This document shows positions 824 to 1,210 of a stretch of 8,015 nucleotides of DNA, piece by piece. The notes beneath the pieces are model-generated. The model ran no database searches. It had not been told where the DNA came from and was given only the letters and a program-made list of their open reading frames with translations. The first letter of the stretch is position 1, and each line of letters opens with the position of its first letter. Source of the DNA: Candidatus Aenigmatarchaeota archaeon (GTDB lineage: Archaea; Aenigmatarchaeota; Aenigmatarchaeia; Aenigmatarchaeales; JAHLMR01). The stretch spans positions 1 to 8,015 of the forward strand of contig JAHLMR010000020.1 in assembly GCA_018920255.1 (NCBI GenBank). Direction: 5' to 3'. Position numbers and translations under genes: made by a program.

Positions 824-1062
824 CAAAAATACAATATTTACCAGAAAATAAAACTATAAAAATTTTATATTTTAAATGATGAATTAAAAATAATTTTATT
901 AAAGCTTGTGATGTTCATTTATAAGTTTTTCTAAAACTATAAATTATCAAAAAATAAATAAATAAATCTTTAAATAAAAAATAAATATATGCCGGCGTAG
1001 CGAAGCTTGGTTTAACGCGCCAGCCTCGAGAGCTGGTTCCCTTTGGGGAGCACAGGTTCAAA

Positions 1063-1091
1063 GAACCTTCTTTCTTAAAGAAAGAAGGTTC
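1063..1091 (+). repeat. Perfect 14-bp inverted repeat (intron hairpin 1)
   Basis: GAACCTTCTTTCTT (1063-1076) is followed by one base and its exact reverse complement AAGAAAGAAGGTTC (1078-1091). In RNA this gives at least a 12-bp stem with a small TTAAA loop, beginning at the first intron base, so it can stack on the bulge-helix-bulge. Confidence 0.9.
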
Positions 1092-1169
1092 ATCGAGAAA
1101 GACAGTTTTTCTTGCTGAAGCTTCTTTTTTTTTGAAAAAGAAGCTTCGGAGAAGGTTCATCAAGAAAGA
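1083..1169 (+). repeat. 20-nt direct repeat inside the tRNA intron, 19/20 identical
   Basis: AGAAGGTTCATCGAGAAAGA at 1083-1102 recurs at 1150-1169 with a single G to A change, 67 nt apart. Each copy follows a hairpin, so the intron reads hairpin-repeat-hairpin-repeat. This suggests internal duplication. Confidence 0.85.
1117..1147 (+). repeat. Perfect 13-bp inverted repeat (intron hairpin 2)
   Basis: GAAGCTTCTTTTT (1117-1129), loop TTTTG (1130-1134), exact complement AAAAAGAAGCTTC (1135-1147). Its end sequence GAAGCTTC resembles GAACCTTC of hairpin 1, so the two hairpins look like variants of one design. Confidence 0.9.
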
Positions 1170-1210
1170 TAAATTTTGAAAATCCTGTCGCCGGCGCTAA
1201 AGTGATAAAA

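Follow-up and report, generated by a model that had tools for sequence, protein, structure and literature searches.

The nearest precedent for the introns described here is the intron transposition of Thermoproteales (Fujishima et al. 2010, as summarized in the reviews PMC4033280 and PMC4090602), in which very similar introns are found in tRNAs for different amino acids, at both canonical and non-canonical sites and by a mechanism that these reviews give as unknown. Archaeal tRNA introns range from 11 to 129 nt, position 59/60 is among their known sites, and the mechanism of their multiplication is 'still unknown' (PMC4090602). The named record for intron number is held by Pyrobaculum calidifontis, with 71 introns in 46 tRNA genes (PMC8450103). 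A literature search that covered few subscription papers gave no match for tRNA introns in Aenigmatarchaeota.

The serine tRNA gene analyzed here lies in a window of 8,015 nucleotides, by which we mean the whole stretch of DNA under study, and its intron belongs to a family that can be set against these systems. As in Thermoproteales, so far as the reviews describe them, similar introns occur across tRNAs for different amino acids; unlike there, the host is probably related to Aenigmatarchaeota, and a single family of long introns (53-129 nt), built of several hairpins, is concentrated at site 59/60 of 16 among 39 tRNA genes. The position and the BHB-type splice sites are those of other non-canonical archaeal 59/60 introns, which the reviews place mainly in Crenarchaeota and Nanoarchaeota, whereas in the present genome no other intron site is as common as the T-loop. 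The tRNA set is intron-rich, with up to three introns per gene, as in P. calidifontis, from which it differs in its T-loop bias, in its 0.55-Mb genome and in the number found, about 52 introns in 39 genes. The new features are the lineage, the size of the family and its concentration at a single position. The initial annotation had assigned archaeal 59/60 introns mainly to Thermoproteales; the site is indeed known, but the present host appears to lie outside that order. Endonuclease relatives were mostly named Candidatus Aenigmatarchaeota, and the host appears to be related to that group (DPANN).

The tRNA-Ser(CGA) gene, taken as the full precursor including discriminator G73, occupies positions 991-1196 of the plus strand, to which all coordinates below refer. 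Its T-loop is interrupted at 59/60 by 120 nt, and the gene is thus divided into (i) a 5' exon at 991-1062 that covers tRNA positions 1-59, i.e., acceptor strand, D arm, anticodon arm, variable arm, 5' strand of the T-stem and TTCAAA (1057-1062), (ii) the intron at 1063-1182, and (iii) a 3' exon at 1183-1196 that consists of T60, the T-stem strand CCTGT, the acceptor strand CGCCGGC and G73. The cloverleaf is complete once the intron is taken out: the acceptor stem is GCCGGCG/CGCCGGC, the anticodon arm CCAGC-CTCGAGA-GCTGG has its anticodon CGA at 1027-1029, the variable arm is long, and the T-stem is ACAGG/CCTGT. ARAGORN called tRNA-Ser(CGA) on the spliced sequence and no tRNA on the unspliced window, and the unspliced gene scored 20.5 bits against the Rfam tRNA model, under the 29-bit cut-off; standard finders do miss the gene, as had been anticipated. 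The split gene read from the sequence is confirmed, and its intron, already noted as long, stands near the top of the published length range. A DNA search of the same genome found no second tRNA-Ser(CGA) in the assembly, the sole other exon match being tRNA-Ser(TGA). Rfam matches in the window to PyrR (E 0.15) and IS009 (E 0.51) were under the family cut-offs and were rejected as reflecting hairpins.

The initial annotation had proposed a bulge-helix-bulge (BHB) motif with a TTCA/TGAA central helix and the bulges AAG and AAT, of which the helix and both predicted cut sites stand, with one refinement on the 5' side. The 4-bp central helix is formed by TTCA at 1057-1060, which is the universal tRNA sequence T54-A57, and by the intron-derived TGAA at 1177-1180. 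The 3' bulge AAT (1181-1183) contains the predicted cut 1182/1183 and the 5' bulge AAG (1061-1063) the predicted cut 1062/1063; cutting two bases into each bulge restores TTCAAAT. Alternatively, hairpin 1 can begin with a G1063-C1091 pair, in which case the 5' side consists of AA and a stacked hairpin. The outer helix of a strict BHB on the intron side is missing or replaced by this hairpin, which begins at the 5' cut, and the motif is a relaxed BHB that lacks a full second helix.

The same pairing recurs beyond this gene. The 3' end of the intron can pair by at least 3 bp with T54-C56 in 18 of the 19 T-loop inserts of the genome (shuffled mean 1.0, maximum 5), although these inserts are not independent because copies are homologous. 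Unrelated inserts in relatives keep the TTC pairing rule (17/18 and 15/15). Altogether, 40 of 46 inserts from the five relatives with more than one insert conform, compared with nulls of about 1, although the fraction differs widely among these five; failures come mainly from genome G004, in which only 4 of 9 inserts keep the rule in the register tested.

The main finding, which the one-window view of the initial annotation could not show, is that this intron has 15 homologous counterparts elsewhere in the genome. The genome, assembled in 25 contigs, spans 552 kb and is 94.6% complete, and 39 tRNA genes were found in it by searches, genome stretches and inspection, a set that may be incomplete. 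An insert is present at the same point of the T-loop in 19 of these genes. Sixteen inserts form one homologous multi-hairpin family and reside in the tRNAs Ser CGA/TGA/GGA, Leu TAG/TAA/CAA, Arg TCT/CCT, Gly CCC/TCC, Thr GGT, Asn, Lys, Met, Trp and Phe; the remaining three inserts are short ones of unrelated sequence (Thr CGT, 24 nt; Cys, 15 nt; Gly GCC, 15 nt). ARAGORN found none of the 19 genes unspliced and called a tRNA in all 19 after insert removal, a few of these recoveries being mis-named owing to mis-spliced canonical introns. Many essential tRNAs of DPANN genomes accordingly escape automatic annotation.

In each of the 19 genes, both the acceptor stem and the T-stem are intact. This makes it scarcely credible that the inserts are retained in mature tRNAs as expanded T-loops or that the genes are pseudogenes, as does the lack of a second tRNA-Ser(CGA); moreover, given established tRNA structure, contact between the D-loop and a T-loop of 120 nt should be blocked. 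Splicing of the T-loop introns is very likely, since it is required for essential tRNAs that serve ten amino acids and are encoded by single-copy genes. A mis-joining of a repeat into tRNA genes during assembly or binning is the least probable explanation of all: the assembly is fragmented and the inserts are repeats, yet the copies differ from each other, with paired compensatory differences, and sit in unique flanks at exactly the same T-loop junction, and in genomes of other families the same site holds other sequences.

A DNA search of the genome with the insert yielded more than 12 strong copies, every one within tRNA genes and at one nucleotide position. Multiple copies with several inverted repeats might recall a mobile DNA element (MITE-like, or the remnant of an integrase, given that 3' parts of tRNA genes are frequent attachment sites; PMC3293823), for which splicing would be a by-product or absent. 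Such an origin is very improbable, and we rejected it: the copies are confined to a single site in tRNA genes, neither the target site nor the tRNA 3' end was seen to be duplicated (the partner strand of the acceptor stem occurs once, beyond the insert), most insert ends can adopt the same short pairing with the exon, and single-copy tRNAs for at least ten amino acids would be disabled. We regard the insert as a genuine tRNA intron that belongs to a spreading or homogenized family exploiting the universal T-loop sequence. In its full form, the reading of the insert as a protein-spliced, BHB-type intron at 59/60 and as one copy of a family spread to the T-loop site of 16 tRNA genes is one that we hold with high confidence.

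Comparison of introns with their host tRNAs supports a transposed intron family, as near-identical introns occur in tRNAs of differing identity and without relation to exon similarity. The mean identity of the 16 introns is 84%, versus 57% for their mature tRNAs, with a correlation of -0.02; the introns are more alike than the exons in 118 of 120 pairs, and the Lys and Met introns are 100% identical over their aligned length. Mantel tests gave no overall link of intron similarity to T-stem, acceptor or body similarity. The pattern of the intron start had no match in collections of genome contigs and viral contigs, among which the present genome is possibly not included.

The intron of tRNA-Ser(CGA) contains three hairpins: hairpin 1 at 1063-1091 (13 bp, GAACCTTCTTTCT..AGAAAGAAGGTTC), in which other copies retain the pairing with altered bases, hairpin 2 at 1094-1114 (9 bp), and hairpin 3 at 1115-1149 (16 bp, CTGAAGCTTCTTTTTT..GAAAAAGAAGCTTCGG). 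Nearly all long copies of the family are strings of strong hairpins built from four stem types, GAACCTTC/GAAGGTTC, GAAACTTC/GAAGTTTC, GCAACTTC/GAAGTTGC and GAAGCTTC/GAAGCTTC. All four keep their pairing, and the paired positions therefore change together; this was judged on extracted stem arms, because gaps were wrongly placed within the stems when the introns were aligned with MAFFT. Identical stem types occupy different hairpin positions among the copies, so that the copies are mosaics of stem modules, which suggests that modules may have been exchanged.

Mosaic structure is also what would be left if older T-loop introns of the order had been overwritten by one sequence through gene conversion, with no new sites invaded. 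We regard this concerted replacement as a serious possibility, somewhat short of even. Other families of the order often have T-loop inserts, and the G001 orthologs of seven tRNAs (Asn, Thr-GGT, Met, Arg-CCT, Gly-TCC, Ser-CGA and Ser-GGA) also carry one, several of them short and of other sequence. In addition, the three short unrelated inserts (15-24 nt) persist in the genome itself, and similarity over the last 16 nt of the introns shows a weak relation to that of the T-stem (r 0.20, p 0.025, uncorrected). On the other hand, long gene-conversion tracts should leave a link between intron and flanking-exon similarity, which is absent overall, and the state of the site is not uniform in the order: no T-loop insert was found among 22 tRNAs of G002, and only 2 of 20 genes carry one in G013. 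Seen from one genome without a close sister, new insertion and replacement of older T-loop introns would look alike.

The counts for the remaining relatives vary in the same manner, with inserts in 18 of the 25 G001 genes inspected, 9 of 13 in G004, 2 of 18 in G003 and 1 of 23 in G008. G006 has 15 T-loop inserts, most of them 10 nt long with the consensus AATCCGGAAT; the fractions for G001, G006 and G003 are not genome-wide because regions were chosen partly for broken-looking tRNA hits. The detector of tRNA genes gave 0 hits on reversed sequence. T-loop inserts thus recur across the order, each intron-rich genome having a different family, and their presence differs among the relatives compared, which belong to the same order but to other families.

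A splicing endonuclease of broad specificity had been predicted from the intron position, and genes for a candidate were found: two overlapping tandem paralogs, beta followed by alpha. The second gene (alpha) keeps the catalytic Tyr and His, and the first (beta) is devoid of the catalytic His; hence the genome encodes two separate subunits, one catalytic-like and one structural, as expected of an (alpha-beta)2 enzyme. The same division of subunits and the same fold are seen in the (alpha-beta)2 endonuclease of Nanoarchaeum equitans (3IEY), which also has a lysine-rich insert before the catalytic His of alpha. The predicted model of alpha (mean pLDDT 90) matched known endonucleases throughout, with Z 18.7 to 3iey_A and 23.5 to 1a79_A. 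When aligned to 1a79, alpha shows no insertion in the N-terminal loop, the place of the Crenarchaeal specific loop (CSL) or ARMAN loop (ASL) with their conserved Lys, and has instead a conserved KRGPK insert before the His, with K122 invariant in 30 sequences (alignment numbering). Unlike in the usual (alpha-beta)2 endonucleases, the Tyr-His-Lys triad is incomplete, with Ala in alpha at the position of M. jannaschii K156. The protein probably works like an (alpha-beta)2 enzyme, but this activity is putative because the lysine of the usual triad is absent. The T-loop introns point to an endonuclease variant without this lysine. RtcB is also encoded in the genome. Taken together, these findings support the interpretation of the initial annotation, all of whose testable inferences held.

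The following scheme accounts for removal of the intron. The pre-tRNA would fold with its T-stem closed, and the last bases of the intron (TGAA or a different pairing-competent stretch of 3-4 nt) would pair with T54-A57, leaving the 3' site with a 3-nt bulge and placing the 5' site next to the first hairpin of the intron. Cuts by the (alpha-beta)2 endonuclease would follow at 1062/1063 and 1182/1183, and RtcB would ligate the exons to TTCAAAT; cutting and joining are both predicted steps. The motif TTCRA is present in the T-loop of nearly every tRNA. Therefore, an intron that carries its complement should be removable from almost any tRNA it entered, which would allow a copy to spread at low cost.

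The direction and mechanism of this spread, and any advantage in it, can only be proposed. A search for the reverse transcriptase domain RVT_1 found none in the genome, and since no reverse transcriptase was found, spread probably proceeded at the DNA level, by conversion or recombination between T-loop regions. More speculatively, and in our estimation improbably, the T-loop introns of the whole order may be active selfish elements with a TTCRA complement, for which any tRNA is a target and of which each lineage has its own family, the Lys-less endonuclease with the KRGPK loop removing them and perhaps helping to insert them. With 16 close copies at one site of a small genome, mosaic modules and other families in relatives, the question of intron multiplication becomes testable.

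Among all 39 tRNA genes found, only five are free of introns. By hand count, the introns comprise the 19 in the T-loop and others in the D arm, the anticodon arm and the variable arm, as well as one at 53/54; the canonical introns were counted by eye, as ARAGORN misplaces some of them. The intron at about 53/54 belongs to tRNA-Leu(GAG) (C18:42429-42544, L016) and contains the hairpin AAACTTTCTTATTAAGAGAAAGTTC, which is like the stem modules of the T-loop family. Short D-arm introns also form look-alike sets, found in Thr GGT (C1), Thr CGT (C23), Met (C23), two Glu and two Val tRNAs; for example, CAAATGCAGAAAA and CAAATGCAAAAAA occur in the two Thr tRNAs and introns beginning with ACAAAAAGCCG in the two Val tRNAs.

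Several further features were observed in relatives. Ala in place of the catalytic Lys156 is found in nearly all alpha subunits of the class (C11, L031/L032 of the present genome and an alignment of 30 relatives). Among G000-G015, the endonuclease genes form a beta-alpha tandem in most families of the order, and searches of several f3 genomes yielded alpha alone. Two of these alpha-only f3 genomes were checked and have few T-loop inserts, but G002 and G003, with both genes, also have few, and an association of alpha-only endonucleases with few inserts is suggestive only. In G004, four tRNAs (L092/L154, L100/L147, L149 and L150) have Ser-like bodies, with long variable arms and G73, and show the apparent anticodons GCG, GAG, GTG and CCT, each with a T-loop insert of 19-24 nt; they seem to resemble the idea of allo-tRNAs. 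In the same genome, a related module, a hairpin plus TCAAG..AAAGA, recurs in introns at D-arm, anticodon and T-loop positions (L048, L080, L096, L151, L152 and L153), as if a single family used all these sites.
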